The position numbers were made by a program, and so were the translations under genes. Source: Polynucleobacter sp. HIN7 (lineage in GTDB: Bacteria > Pseudomonadota > Gammaproteobacteria > Burkholderiales > Burkholderiaceae). Taken from it: a stretch of 64,000 nt of DNA. Under the pieces are notes generated by a model. It had not been told where the DNA came from. It did no database searches and was given only the letters and a program-made list of their open reading frames with translations. Below, in pieces: positions 13,421 through 22,085 of the stretch. The stretch spans positions 1,731,158-1,795,157 of the forward strand of contig NZ_AP028138.1 in the NCBI RefSeq assembly GCF_030297595.1, written 5' to 3'. The number at the start of each line of letters is the position of its first letter. Position 1 is the stretch's first letter.

Positions 13421-13488
13421 AGCTCCAGCTAAAGAACGCCAGCGGAGCCAATAGTGACTCGCTAACCGCCAGCATTCGGGTTAGCGAG
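13421..13488 (-). promoter_or_regulatory. candidate expression platform of the ahcY SAH riboswitch
   Basis: Two hairpins follow the aptamer. CTCGCTAAC (13480-13488, minus strand) pairs perfectly with GTTAGCGAG (13458-13466) across a 13-nt loop; its 5' arm shares bases with the aptamer's pseudoknot strand, so the two folds exclude each other. Further down GCTCC (13444-13448) can pair with GGAGC (13422-13426), which contains the ahcY Shine-Dalgarno sequence. That the first switch controls exposure of the second is inference. Confidence 0.5.
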
Positions 13489-13569
13489 CGCAGTTGCAAT
13501 GAAGTTACTAAGTAACTCCCCTTCAAGCCTGGGGGGCGACGATGCGCCCCTTGCAACGCTCCTTGAAGG
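13481..13569 (-). promoter_or_regulatory. S-adenosylhomocysteine (SAH) riboswitch upstream of ahcY-metF
   Basis: On the minus strand the leader reads CCTTCAAG-GAGCGTTGCAAG, a GC-rich hairpin, CCCAGGCTTGAAGG, and later GCGCTCGCTAA. CCTTCAAG pairs with CTTGAAGG as P1. GAGCGT can pair with the distal GCGCTC as the pseudoknot, and the GCNTTGCAAG / CCCAGGCT elements match the SAH riboswitch consensus as I recall it. SAH riboswitches are known upstream of ahcY in beta- and gammaproteobacteria and switch expression on when SAH is high. The element begins about 10 nt after a TACAAT -10-like box at 13580-13585. Confidence 0.85.
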
Positions 13570-13579
13570 AATTGCCTAA

Positions 13580-13597: not shown

Positions 13598-14764
13598 CTA
13601 GAGGCCTGCGCCAGCCTTCAAAGCAGCCGCCTTGTCCTTGCGCTCCCATGTGAATTCAGGCTCCTCGCGGCCAAAATGGCCATATGCAGCGGTCTTTTTA
13701 TAAATAGGCCGCAAGAGATCAAGCATTTTCACAATACCCTTCGGACGCAGATCAAAATGCTCAGATACAAGTTTTGCAATCTGCTCATCCGCAATCTTGC
13801 CAGTACCAAAGGTGCTAACCATCACCGATGTAGGACGAGCCACACCAATCGCATACGAGATCTGAATGAGGCATTTACTTGCCAGACCTGCAGCGACTAC
13901 ATTCTTAGCTACATAGCGGCCAGCGTAGGCAGCCGATCGATCCACCTTAGACGGATCTTTCCCAGAAAATGCACCGCCACCGTGAGGAGCTGCGCCACCG
14001 TAAGTATCCACAATAATTTTGCGTCCGGTGAGACCGCAATCGCCTTGGGGGCCGCCAATCACAAAACGACCGGTTGGGTTTACTAAATATTTAATATCGC
14101 CCTTGATTAAATGCTTAGGTAAAACGGGTTTGATAATTTCTTCAATCACCGCTTCACGTAATTTCTCCAAAGGAATATCCGCAGCATGCTGTGTCGATAG
14201 CACTACCGTATCAATCGAGTCAGGCTTTCCATCGACATAGCGCAAGGTCACTTGGGATTTTGCATCGGGGCGTAGCCAATTTAGACGCCCATCGCGACGC
14301 AATTGAGATTGGCGCTCGACTAGACGGTGCGACAAATAAATTGGAAGGGGCATTAACTCAGGGGTCTCATCGCAGGCATAACCAAACATTAATCCCTGAT
14401 CGCCTGCACCTTGATCTAAGCCATCATCGTGCGCTTTATCAACACCTTGCGCAATGTCTGGACTTTGTTTGTCATAAGCCACCAAAACTGCGCAGCCTTT
14501 GTAATCGATGCCGTATTCAGTGTTGTCATAGCCAATCTCGCGCAGGGTATTGCGTGCGACTTGAATGTAATCAACATTAGCATTGGTGGTAATTTCACCA
14601 GCGAGAACTACTAAGCCAGTATTACAAAGTGTCTCAGCGGCAACACGCGCCTTTGGATCTTGTGCCAAGATCGCATCTAAGATTGAATCTGAGATTTGGT
14701 CTGCAACTTTATCGGGATGTCCCTCAGAAACCGATTCTGAGGTAAAGAAATAATCATTAGCCAT
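13598..14764 (-). CDS. metK: S-adenosylmethionine synthase
   Basis: Makes SAM from methionine and ATP. The protein starts [19 protein letters not shown] and includes [12 protein letters not shown], the phosphate-binding [14 protein letters not shown] and a C-terminal region ending KAGAGL; 388 aa matches the family. I start at the second in-frame ATG because GGAG sits 6 nt before it; the ATG four codons upstream overlaps that same Shine-Dalgarno sequence. The 5' leader contains a SAM-II-like aptamer and an alternative helix (separate entries), suggesting feedback by the product. It lies directly upstream of the ahcY leader on the same strand but appears to be a separate unit. Confidence 0.97.
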
Positions 14765-14770
14765 TCTATT

Positions 14771-14861
14771 CTCCATTTAATTAAGCACTGACAACACCAC
14801 GTGCCGGGGAATACAACGGCGACGCTTTAGCAGATTTTTTTAATTCGCCCCGCAAGTTGTC
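14771..14861 (-). promoter_or_regulatory. candidate expression platform of the metK leader (anti-aptamer helix versus RBS masking)
   Basis: Minus-strand ATTCCCC (14806-14812) has two possible partners: the aptamer's GGGG plus AAT (14843-14851), and the Shine-Dalgarno segment GGAGAAT (14768-14774, six of seven pairs). In addition GACAAC in the aptamer loop (14856-14861) is complementary to GTTGTC (14790-14795). Without ligand the long helix could form and leave the ribosome site open; with SAM bound, ATTCCCC is freed to mask it. The pairings are visible in the sequence; the mechanism is inference. Confidence 0.45.
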
Positions 14862-14878
14862 TTTAACTCGGCGAATAA
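14821..14878 (-). promoter_or_regulatory. candidate SAM-II-type riboswitch aptamer in the metK leader
   Basis: On the minus strand ATTCGCC (14870-14876) pairs with GGCGAAT (14843-14849) as P1. The loop holds GAGTTAAAGAC and then TTGCGG just before the 3' arm of P1. An A-rich linker follows, then CTGCTAAAGCGTC (14821-14833). This order (P1, UUAA loop, UUGC, A-rich strand, GCUAAA tail) matches SAM-II aptamers. GAC in the loop can pair with the final GUC, and GCGG with CUGC, giving the H-type pseudoknot. One loop U of the known binding core is G here. Location before metK supports the assignment, but it was made by eye. Confidence 0.65.
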
Positions 14879-14882
14879 CCAA

Positions 14883-14912
14883 ATTCTATCGCATCTATGG
14901 ACTGGCCGCCAA
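14883..14912 (-). promoter_or_regulatory. candidate metK promoter (TTGGCG-18-TAGAAT)
   Basis: On the minus strand TTGGCG (14907-14912) is followed after 18 bp by TAGAAT (14883-14888), a reasonable sigma-70 promoter. Initiation about 7 nt downstream would fall at the first base of aptamer helix P1, which fits SAM-II leaders that begin close to the transcript end. Confidence 0.5.
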
Positions 14913-14942
14913 ATCGCATAGTGAATTGAATATCATTAGCAA

Positions 14943-15803
14943 ATGTCACAGTGGGCTTTGAATTTCATTCTAAAAGGTATCGCCAGTCTCCCCTTGAGTT
15001 TGGCTCAGATTCTGGGTGGCTTGGGCGGAATGATGGCCTATACCTTTTCCTCTCATTTTCGTGGCTTATTTCAAGAAAACTATCGCCATGCGATGCAACT
15101 TCATGGCAAGACAACTCATCCATGGAAAGCGGCTGCAGCCTCTGGCATGCTTTTTATCGACAGCCTTTGGATCTGGCATAACCCCCAAAAAGCACTTTCA
15201 CGCGCTCACATTCAAGACTGGAGCCCAGTCGATCAAGCAGTTCAAGAGGGCAAGGGCTTGGTGATGCTCACACCCCATCTTGGCGGCTTTGAAATCATTC
15301 CCCGCATATTGGCCAATCATTTCCCGGCCACCATCTTGTATCGGCCGGCCCGTCAAGAATGGTTAAATCATCTGATCGAAGAGCAACGCGCCTATCCCAA
15401 TATGCACTTTGTACCCACCAATCTGCAAGGAGTACGAAAAATGGTCAAAGCCCTTCAAGAGAGTGAGGCGATTGGCATTCTTCCAGATCAGGTGCCCAGT
15501 GGCGGTGATGGGGTGTGGGTAAAGTTTTTTAATCGCTATGCTTACACGACCCCACTGCCCGCTCGCTTAGCGAATCGCAATCAAACCCCTGTCATCTTGT
15601 TTTCAGCCATTCGCAAATCGCTTGGCCAAGGCTGGATCATTAAAGCGCAACGCCTAAAGGCATTTTCAGAGGATCCCTATCAGGCGGCCACTCAAATGAA
15701 CGAGGCGATTGAAGCAGTTATTCTTGAGGCTCCAGAGCAATTTATTTGGTCGTACAACCGTTATAAACACCCCGAGGGCGCCGAGCTTCCGCCCCAAGAC
15801 TAA
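14943..15803 (+). CDS. lipid A biosynthesis acyltransferase (LpxL/HtrB family), first copy
   Basis: Inner-membrane acyltransferase adding a secondary acyl chain to lipid A. The 286-residue protein has an N-terminal hydrophobic stretch and the HX4E catalytic motif as TPHLGGFEI around residue 115, followed by ILYRPARQ and GILPDQVPSGGDGVW, all typical of the family. A second homologue starts 7 bp downstream, so the two are co-translated and likely add acyl chains at different positions. Which is LpxL and which is LpxM-like cannot be told from sequence alone. It is divergent from metK. Confidence 0.9.
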   Translation: MSQWALNFILKGIASLPLSLAQILGGLGGMMAYTFSSHFRGLFQENYRHAMQLHGKTTHPWKAAAASGMLFIDSLWIWHNPQKALSRAHIQDWSPVDQAVQEGKGLVMLTPHLGGFEIIPRILANHFPATILYRPARQEWLNHLIEEQRAYPNMHFVPTNLQGVRKMVKALQESEAIGILPDQVPSGGDGVWVKFFNRYAYTTPLPARLANRNQTPVILFSAIRKSLGQGWIIKAQRLKAFSEDPYQAATQMNEAIEAVILEAPEQFIWSYNRYKHPEGAELPPQD

Positions 15804-20378: not shown

Positions 20379-20952
20379 GCACGCGGTAGATTGCTAAGCT
20401 ACCAAATAAATTAGGTAACCAGTGGACTGTCTTGCCATGATGCAAAACAACCCGCCCCAAAATCTCAATTCCTAATTTGTGTGCCAAGGCTTCAAAATCA
20501 GCAATGGTCAGAACTCGTACATTGGGGGTATTGAACCACTCATAGGGCAAGGATTTCGAAACAGGCATGCGGCCAAGCGCAACTGCATAGCGGTGCGACC
20601 AGTGTCCAAAGTTTGGGAAAGATACAACGCATTGCTTTCCAACCCGCACCACCTCACGCAAGATTCGCTCGGTTTGATGGATCGTCTGTAGAGTTTGAGA
20701 CAGCACAACAGTATCAAAGCTTTGATCCTTGAAAAGCGCTAAACCACCTTCCAAATCCTGCTGGATTACGTTTAAGCCCTTTTCCACACACGCCAATACC
20801 GCGCTATCTTTAATTTCAACACCATAAGTAATCGCTTGACGCTTTGCACGAATGAACTCGAGGAACGATCCATCACCACAACCCAAGTCTAGTAAAGAGC
20901 TGTTCGTTTCAACCCAATTAGCGATCGCATCAAAATCAGATCTTAATTGCAT
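20365..20952 (-). CDS. metW: methionine biosynthesis protein MetW
   Basis: Small SAM-methyltransferase-fold protein of 195 aa. It shows a motif [15 protein letters not shown] and later [12 protein letters not shown] and [11 protein letters not shown], which are hallmarks of MetW. The gene overlaps metX by 10 bp. In several proteobacteria MetX and MetW act together as the homoserine acyltransferase, so the coupling is functionally expected. Its exact catalytic role is not established. Confidence 0.93.
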
Positions 20953-22085
20953 TGCGCCTCCGCCATCGTCGCAAAATAGGCTCGCACTAGGCGATGGTAG
21001 CGCTCATCATTAAGTAAGAATGCATCATGTCCATGCGGTGCATCAATTTCAGCATAGCTCACATCTGCTTTGTTATTGAGTAGAGCTTGCACGATTTCGC
21101 GACTACGATCGGGTGAAAAGCGCCAGTCCGTTGAAAAACTGATGACTAAAAATTTAGCTTGAGCATGCGCTAGGGCTTGACTCAAGTCCCCCTGATGACG
21201 TTTTGCTGGGTCAAAATAGTCTAGCGCACGCGTAATTAGCAAATACGTATTGGCATCAAAATATCCCGAGAACTTATCGCCCTGATGCCGCAAATAACTC
21301 TCAACGGCAAACTCCACATCAAAACTAAAACGATATTCGTCTGGCGCGCCAGCTAAGCGCTGCAAATCACGCCCAAACTTTTCAGCCATATCATCGTCTG
21401 ATAGATAAGTAATATGTCCAACCATCCGCGCTAAGCGCAAGCCTCGCTTGGGAACGACGCCATGTTTGTAATAATCGCCGCCATAAAAATCAGGGTCTGA
21501 CAAAATTGCATTGCGCGCAACCTCATTAAATGCGATATTTTGTGCACTAAGCTTTGGCGTCGAGGCAATAACCACACAATGGGCAACACGCTCTGGATAT
21601 TGGATCGCCCATGACATGGCCTGCATACCACCTAAACTGCCCCCCATAACCGCCGCAAACTTCTCAATCCCCATCTGATCGGCTAAACGTGCTTGTGCGT
21701 TAACCCAATCCTCAACGGTGAGCACTGGAAAGCGCGCCCCATAGGGTTCATTGGTTTGTGGGTTAATGCTCATCGGGCCCGTTGAGCCAAAACATGAGCC
21801 TAGATTATTTACCCCAATCACAAAAAAGTGATTGGTATCGACTGGCTTGCCAGGTCCAACCATGTTGTCCCACCAACCCAACTCATTGGAACTGTCTGGA
21901 TCAATGCCTGCAACGTGATGCGATGCATTCAGCGCATGGCAAATTAGAACCGCATTGCTTGCATTTGCATTCAGCCGTCCATAAGTCTCAACGACTAAAT
22001 CGTATTGATCAATGCTAGCGCCGCTTTGCAACCTCAGCGGTGCATCAAAATGATAGGTTTTCTTTGAAAGATACAACTCACTCAT
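20943..22085 (-). CDS. metX: homoserine O-acyltransferase MetX
   Basis: Alpha/beta-hydrolase-fold enzyme that activates homoserine for methionine synthesis. The nucleophile elbow reads [14 protein letters not shown], and the Asp and His of the triad fall in the C-terminal part, with the His in [11 protein letters not shown]. The 380-residue length is standard. The acyl donor (acetyl- or succinyl-CoA) cannot be decided by eye; the linked metW makes succinyl-CoA possible. It overlaps slmA upstream by 4 bp and metW downstream by 10 bp. Confidence 0.95.

Follow-up and report, generated by a model that had tools for sequence, protein, structure and literature searches.

A variant SAM-II-like pseudoknot before metK in Polynucleobacter and related bacteria, probably an OFF switch acting on translation

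The SAM-II family (RF00521, SAM_alpha) has been described from various α-proteobacteria and a few bacteria elsewhere (Corbino 2005, PMC1273637), where Bordetella bronchiseptica appears in a figure legend and metK is unmentioned in the available part of the text. SAM-II elements with terminators are known in β-proteobacteria as well (PMC2258182). In the accessible text of PMC4239095 SAM_alpha is confined to Rhizobiales and Rhodobacterales, a metXZ element is described for β-proteobacteria, and β-proteobacterial metK is said to be under no known methionine regulator, a search for one having been unsuccessful. Bp2_Cand287 lies before methionine genes (PMC3521395), and a motif search covering Polynucleobacter leaves metK unmentioned in the part of the article that is available (PMC8632094). 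Our own search of the open literature, with subscription papers and supplements outside its scope, found no β-proteobacterial metK riboswitch.

Use of such aptamers at the level of translation has precedents. The SAM-bound form of the Sinorhizobium meliloti metA SAM-II has been reported to sequester the Shine-Dalgarno sequence (SD), which lies within the riboswitch, with the translation start 74 nt downstream (PMC9373788). In SAM-V of Pelagibacter the SD is masked directly in P2a, and a short P2a of 2 bp has been reported both for SAM-V and for a translational metX SAM-II (PMC6061858). Moreover, 44 tandem SAM-II pairs have been published, some of them a terminator-type aptamer followed by one apparently controlling the ribosome site, with no gene or taxon named in the available text (PMC9481103).

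The window analysed here is the whole stretch of 64,000 nucleotides from Polynucleobacter sp. HIN7, in which metK, on the minus strand, follows a leader that by anatomy appears to be a translational SAM-II/SAM-V-like switch, and by Rfam score and the U10 rule a variant. We consider it quite probable that this leader, with a variant SAM-II pseudoknot as its aptamer, senses SAM and switches the translation of metK off, so that a cell well supplied with SAM would probably stop making more of it. The leader reads, on the minus strand, TTGGCG, TAGAAT, P1, GAGUUAA, GACAACUUGC, the P1 3′ arm, an 11-nt A-rich L3 and GCUAAAGCGUC, with 56 nt including the ribosome site between GCUAAAGCGUC and the metK start codon at 14764. 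Its features, all on the minus strand, are as follows.

13598..14764, minus: metK, methionine adenosyltransferase (TIGR01034, 607.6 bits, cut-off 309.4); start placed by homology, the ORF list opening at the in-frame ATG 14776
about 14760-14876, minus: metK leader pseudoknot element and ribosome site
14907..14912, minus: -35-like hexamer TTGGCG, by promoter matching
14883..14888, minus: -10-like hexamer TAGAAT, by promoter matching
14870..14876, minus: P1 5′ strand AUUCGCC, by alignment and covariation
14863..14869, minus: L1 third strand GAGUUAA, equivalent to SAM-II G8-A14
14867, minus: G in place of SAM-II U10, numbered as in PMC3764141 and placed by alignment
14852-14861, minus: GACAACTTGC, the P2 5′ region
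14859..14861, minus: P2a 5′ strand GAC, by pairing counts and covariation
14852..14855, minus: P2b 5′ strand UUGC (SAM-II U20 U21 G22 C23), invariant in the alignment
14843..14849, minus: P1 3′ strand GGCGAAU, by alignment and covariation
14832..14842, minus: L3, short and A-rich, from reading of the leader
14821-14831, minus: GCTAAAGCGTC, the P2 3′ region
14826..14831, minus: P2b 3′ strand GCUAAA (SAM-II G42-A47)
14829, minus: U44, predicted partner of the SAM adenine
14821..14823, minus: P2a 3′ strand GUC, its G and U common to P3
14817..14825, minus: P3 5′ strand GCGU-c-GCCG, overlapping P2a and the anti-SD strand
14799..14806, minus: P3 3′ strand CGGCACGU
14806..14820, minus: anti-SD/anti-start strand GCCGUUGUAUUCCCC, its 3′ end being ATTCCCC, by hybridisation energy
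14790..14795, minus: GUUGUC, candidate anti-P2 strand at genus level, complement of GACAAC at 14856-14861
14760..14774, minus: masked stretch GGAGAAUAGAAUGGC
14768-14774, minus: ribosome site GGAGAAT, with the SD GGAG at 14771-14774
14762-14764, minus: metK start codon

All the parts that the first-pass annotation had named, namely P1, the UUAA loop, UUGC, the A-rich strand, the GCUAAA tail, ATTCCCC, GGAGAAT and GTTGTC, lie in the metK leader where it had put them. With SAM-II (RF00521) the element shares P1 and the H-type pseudoknot, the GA.UU third strand, CUUGC/GCUAAA, 12 of 13 pocket nucleotides and a promoter, predicted here, just 5′ of P1, as well as a position before a methionine/SAM gene. 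In SAM-II, L3 adenines lie in the P1 minor groove; of L3 in the present element the alignment shows that it is A-rich. The element differs from SAM-II in its G10, its 3-bp P2a, its sub-cut-off score, its gene, metK, and an SD about 47 nt past P2a that is masked by a separate strand. The UUGC-to-GCUAAA distance is 20 nt here and ranges from 18 to 132 across 119 distinct metK leaders. The hexamers TTGGCG and TAGAAT make 9 of 12 promoter matches with a spacer of 18; shuffles average 0.7 such sites, so this pair is weak promoter evidence by itself. Among relatives, a -10-like TANNNT with at least 5 of 6 matches stands within 22 nt 5′ of P1 in 98 of 117 metK leaders, against 7.7% of mononucleotide shuffles, and from the position of this box transcription would start near the first base of P1.

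Scanning of 14700-14980 with cmscan at E up to 10 returned one family only, SAM_alpha, at 20.8 bits (E 0.011), below the cut-off of 36 bits, and Rfam 15 gives the metK element in the window only as a sub-threshold match. The match above threshold on which the first-pass annotation had staked its SAM-II reading was hence not obtained; neither SAM_V nor SAM-II_long_loops (RF01726) matched the leader up to E 10, and the latter also gave no match in 17 metK loci up to E 1. Given the missed cut-off and the absence of a SAM_V match, the element is to be called a variant and no filed member of either family. SAM-V membership is ruled out on the same SAM_V result, and the SD, at 14771-14774, lies outside the P2/P2a strand that holds it in SAM-V. 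The leader is the top SAM_alpha match of its 1.8 Mb genome (20.8 bits, E 0.017; runner-up 16.9 bits). The runner-up (L002) lies before a 103-aa ORF which we take to be rpsJ. At E up to 10 the same model matches all 14 control genomes, so its score alone is weak. None of the 121 same-genus genomes reaches the cut-off, and a scan of 17 metK loci with E up to 1 gave a SAM_alpha match in L047 only (22.1 bits). The evidence against a chance resemblance rests on the relatives: chance is ruled out by covariation together with presence in 119 of 121 same-genus genomes. A like element was also considered at metX in the window (20943-22085), and was rejected as the metX start falls inside the end of the preceding gene.

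To follow the element among named genomes, the 80 best MetK loci, chosen without element search and leaning to near relatives, were read upstream of metK. Sixty-seven of them carry it, 64 found by a first pattern and three (L044, L057, L069) added by a looser one. The 13 without it are two Gallionella, one each of Nitrotoga, Sideroxydans and Methylovorus, a member of Methylophilaceae, a Nitrosomonadales MAG, two ‘Burkholderiales’ MAGs, two ‘uncultured proteobacterium’ MAGs, one locus with only 3 nt present upstream (L051) and the endosymbiont Vallotia (L049). The metK of Vallotia retains only a 3′ remnant, a GCCAAAGCGUCGCCG stretch, and decay is possible there. Within the genus, search R2 was positive in 119 of 121 genomes, each best match being at least 62.7 bits; in the two others MetK was not found either at E 1e-10, while both control genomes gave MetK. 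Neither MetK nor the element was found in G033, which is rated 100% complete, and a gap or masked stretch is possible. Search R1 was positive in 145 of 300 genomes of the order (Burkholderiales) and in 9 of 229 sampled from the class, of which three belong to the own order. Among 249 genomes sampled from the phylum, R2 matched 20, namely 12 of the own order and 8 from a single other family of the class; not all matches of these three surveys are metK leaders. The P1 columns of R1 are one off, so that its searches act as a sequence profile and the order tally has to be read as such, while in R2, used for the genus and phylum searches, P1 is correct. The metK element is thus widespread and old, not an isolated oddity. 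The first-pass annotation had taken presence beyond α-proteobacteria as a possible sign of transfer or of wider spread; wider spread is what the genus and the named loci bear out, and the wide distribution among related genomes argues against a recent transfer from α-proteobacteria, a judgement from distribution rather than from a tree. To its picture of SAM-II as known mainly from α-proteobacteria one has to add the published β-proteobacterial cases (PMC2258182) and the 51 of 300 genomes of the order that pass the SAM_alpha cut-off (136 reach E 0.001).

Conservation was measured on two alignments. The first (A1) holds 60 of 64 pattern-found cores including that of the window, with L022, L028, L030 and L037 omitted. 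The second (A2) holds 75 of 79 metK cores, which remained from 119 leaders after removal of cores longer than 95 nt and near-duplicates; L156, L169 and L178 (inserted loop) and L232 (type A-like) were omitted. The 119 leaders are distinct, and those beyond the 80 named loci were picked by R1 or RF00521 matches, which does not apply to the genus search. On A2 the covariation score is 0.243, while 500 shuffles give 0.112 and slid pairings no more than 0.077; the shuffle figures, like those of the rank tests, ignore kinship. In P1 both sides have changed at each of the 7 pairs and 88.6% of cells pair. Its outermost pair is broken in 37 of 75 sequences and the next in 12 of 75, leaving five to six pairs of P1 that hold firmly; pair 3 is unbroken in all 75 (UA 47, CG 27, GC 1). 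P2b shows no variation in A2, and the covariation evidence therefore comes from P1 and P2a alone. In P2a, 86.0% of cells pair over four columns, with both-side changes at two, and over the 119 leaders pair 1 forms in 119, pair 2 in 118, pair 3 in 116 and pair 4 in 56. The types of P2a in metK leaders are GAC/GUC, GAAC/GUUC (14), GGAC/GUUC (5) and GAGC/GUUC (2); among the 22 leaders with the 3′ strand GUUC the 5′ strand is one of the latter three in 21 and AAGC in one, which indicates that the extra base is matched on the opposite strand. Outside the metK set, P2a pairs 1-3 form in 24 of 24 further cores, whose genes were not verified singly, including the types CAGC/GCUG (4) and CAAC/GUUG (3). 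The search patterns fix UU at 11-12, UUGC, GC[UC]AAA and the G of P2a pair 1, so that invariance at these sites is partly by construction; positions 9 and 10, P1 and P2a pairs 2-4 are free in the looser pattern. In folding energy the leader as a whole surpasses its shuffles only by a modest margin (z -1.57). Conservation of the pairings in related metK leaders, which the first-pass annotation had looked to, is therefore borne out for P1 and P2a.

The SAM-II numbering was set on the window from a SAM-II sequence. It is consistent with the triples named in PMC3764141, where the fully conserved nucleotides are given as U10 U11 U12 U20 U21 G22 C23 G42 C43 U44 A45 A46 A47. Twelve of these 13 are kept in the window, including the whole sulfonium triple U11-A45-U21, which agrees with the first-pass reading of a SAM-II-like aptamer in which one core U is replaced by G; the exception is position 10, at 14867. 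This G is no peculiarity of the window, position 10 being G in 110 of 119 distinct metK leaders and U in nine; one leader, L064, combines U10 with C44. By alignment, U10, which is next to the adenine-binding U44, would correspond to U8 of SAM-V, a base that bonds to U47, which in turn is paired with the SAM adenine (PMC6061858).

The prevalence of G10 at such a base allows one to ask whether a SAM-II-derived aptamer has altered its specificity to sense SAH, SAM and SAH together, or another adenosyl compound, and a spermidine-binding close variant of a SAM aptamer has indeed been published (PMC10853860). We consider this quite unlikely: the triple facing the sulfonium is unchanged, U10 and G10 versions both occur before metK and both occur second in tandem pairs, metK itself makes SAM, and G would offer hydrogen-bond donors where U10 gives one. 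The last point makes it likelier that SAM binding is kept despite G10. There is, to the same effect, only a slim prospect that the metK-type RNAs form a separate SAM-II-derived aptamer class in which G10 rebuilds the adenine end and alters affinity or ligand choice, e.g. towards SAM plus SAH. The conserved leader could also be a protein-binding site with no riboswitch involved, as in autoregulation by MetK, which has been proposed to be an RNA-binding protein; however, the available text of the same paper reports no detected binding of MetK to SAM-II sRNAs (PMC9373788), it is the residues of the SAM-II pocket that are conserved, and similar cores also precede metZ, metX, a MATE gene and other genes, all of which makes this very improbable.

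Most of the parsed, gene-assigned elements fall into two types, a split that omits many loci without pattern match or gene. Type A aptamers (GAUUUG, CAGCUUGC) precede metZ and metX and take the first place in tandem pairs; type B aptamers (GAKUUA, AACUUGC, GCUAAAGCGUC) precede metK and take the second. Thirteen distinct tandem pairs were found, the first aptamer having GAUUUG in 12 and GACUUG in one, and the second GAUUUA in 8, GAGUUA in 3 and GAGUUG in 2; since the loci were chosen by matches, the number 13 gives no rate. These pairs mirror the published SAM-II/SAM-V and SAM-II/SAM-II tandems (PMC9481103, PMC11508383), SAM-V likewise standing second after a terminator-type SAM-II, whereas the metK element of the window is single. 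Of 20 loci chosen for other genes or doubtful matches, 15 have SAM_alpha at E up to 1 and three pass the cut-off (L207, L162, L196). In Bordetella ansorpii SAM_alpha has a single match with E up to 0.01; it exceeds the cut-off and lies before metX, while a type B aptamer lies before metK (L076).

The metXZ element (PMC4239095) and Bp2_Cand287/RF02424 (PMC3521395) resemble the present element as leaders of methionine genes in related bacteria, but belong to metX/metZ rather than metK and are not identified as SAM-II in the available text of either source; they are probably type A relatives of SAM-II. Matches to RF02424 (Burkholderia sRNA Bp2_287), none of which reaches its cut-off of 70, run antisense to the SAM-II-like element in each of seven loci (L198, L164, L149, L176, L174, L207, L205), and the family may have been modelled on the wrong strand of SAM-II leaders. 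SAM-II-like aptamers, several of them tandem, also precede a MATE transporter gene (L148, L149, L183, L187, L196, L197, L198, L207, L247), assigned by PF01554 for the L148 gene and for the others by blastx to it; in L148, L187 and L207 a small MYDC... protein, in L148 without Pfam match, precedes the MATE gene. Other aptamers of this kind lie before an AAA ATPase-like gene, named by eye and mutually similar by blastx (L150, L251, L254). In L159 and L161 a 347-aa ORF follows tandem aptamers at a distance of 171 nt; metK is present in the locus, but has no element within 400 nt of its start. Loci L297, L298 and L303, from eight genomes of one family outside the order, are type B-like with GAUUUA and an AGC/GCU P2a; in L298 and L303 the aptamer stands before a 106- and a 102-aa protein, that of L303 without Pfam match.

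Downstream of the aptamer, the strand GCCGUUGUAUUCCCC is complementary to the start region. In the window their helix reaches -18.4 kcal/mol, compared to -10.9 for shuffled sequence and -14.7 with the start regions of other leaders, and over 118 leaders the means are -18.95 (own), -14.54 (shuffled) and -14.78 kcal/mol (swapped), the own helix being better than shuffled in 105 and better than swapped in 104. When the test ends before the start codon, the mean is -13.4 kcal/mol vs. -10.2 shuffled and -10.3 swapped, and the window reaches only -6.5 kcal/mol (z -0.3). The first-pass annotation had given ATTCCCC two partners, of which the masking of the ribosome site stands; pairing with the aptamer GGGG/AAT was, by eye, not seen to be conserved, L010-L014 reading GTTCCTGG or ATTCCTGG at that site (the MetK matches of L010-L013 are 94-95% identical). 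These energies also bear on the possibility that the same aptamer acts on transcription, through a terminator or Rho, instead of on the translation start. SAM-II control is often transcriptional (PMC2258182), and all 13 tandem pairs have a U-run in the linker that follows their first aptamer, which is of type A; no terminator-like site was found within 14700-15000, and the anti-SD strand fits its own start region better than those of others, so for the metK leader we hold control through transcription unlikely and keep to translational control.

The competing structure best supported across lineages is a hairpin, P3, formed by GCGU-c-GCCG with CGGC-ACGU, whose 5′ strand is common to P2a. AACGC lies downstream in 21 of 22 leaders with GCGUUC (an extra U) and in 16 of 95 with GCGUC, so that a single insertion finds its counterpart in both of the competing helices; as the leaders with GCGUUC are kin, few independent events lie behind this. 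A loose P3 3′ pattern (GGC..ACGY-like), counted without a chance control, is matched by 55 of the 95 GCGUC leaders and not by 40. With the P2 strand free, the transcript ending short of the SD is more stable by 4.96 kcal/mol (3.59 in controls), and the gain exceeds that of the control in 87 of 118 leaders; in the window alone the P3 gain from the free strand is not above shuffled (-3.2 vs. -3.8 kcal/mol). The probability of downstream pairing of the P2a strand is hardly above shuffled, at 0.70 vs. 0.64, and exceeds 0.5 in 101 of 119 leaders compared to 110 of 119 shuffled means. The complementarity of GACAAC to GUUGUC, seen in the first pass, is kept in 30 of 30 same-genus loci (the best 30 of 119 matches, with 28 distinct tails) vs. 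2.2% in shuffled tails, and occurs in 0 of 104 other metK leaders, which makes it a genus-level addition. In 15 distinct near relatives GUUGUC is constant, with the loop GGCAAC in four and GACGAC in one, G-U pairing being retained.

Equilibrium folding of the finished leader, computed for 117 leaders, leaves the SD unpaired at 0.185 with the aptamer strand free and 0.177 with it held, a mean drop of 0.008 (p 0.52 vs. control), compared to 35% in shuffles; in these models masking of the SD is evident and switching is not. An ON state would then have to be held kinetically or with the aid of ribosomes. The OFF-switch model and the switching helix of the first-pass annotation come through in part: masking of the ribosome site is possible and some strands do have a choice of two partners, but folding masks the SD with or without the aptamer, and the best-supported competitor is P3, which that annotation did not contain.

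While the elements, their conservation, the covariation of P1 and P2a and the overlap between competing pairings are seen directly, we infer SAM as ligand, an OFF direction of control and a kinetically held ON state. At high SAM, P2 would dock by pairing of UUGC with GC.AA, SAM would be seated in the triple helix of U11/U12 with A45-U21/A46-U20, and the 3-bp P2a (GAC/GUC) would close the SAM-bound pseudoknot. Docked P2a would occupy bases that P3 needs, and with GCCGUUGUAUUCCCC then able to cover the SD and the start codon, metK would stay untranslated. At low SAM, P2a would be open and P3 (GCGU-c-GCCG/CGGCACGU), transcribed ahead of the SD, would hold the anti-SD strand; in the own genus GUUGUC may also pair with GACAAC, keeping P2 apart. 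Such a switch would be like S. meliloti metA in masking the SD in the SAM-bound form, and like SAM-V in employing this core, with its short P2a, to control translation; it would differ from the former in gene, in lineage (an α-proteobacterium there) and in the SD lying outside the aptamer.

Directly after metK, at 13479-13570 on the minus strand, lies an SAH riboswitch (RF01057, 61.2 bits), followed by ahcY and then metF. Two neighbouring genes of the window, metK and ahcY, would be governed by a SAM-type and an SAH switch, respectively. The occurrence of U10 and G10 versions before the same gene, metK, supplies natural material for testing the role of base 10, and if the separate G10 class were true, metK would be tuned to another signal than metX/metZ of related bacteria. 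For many β-proteobacteria, the metK element would fill the regulator gap described in PMC4239095.
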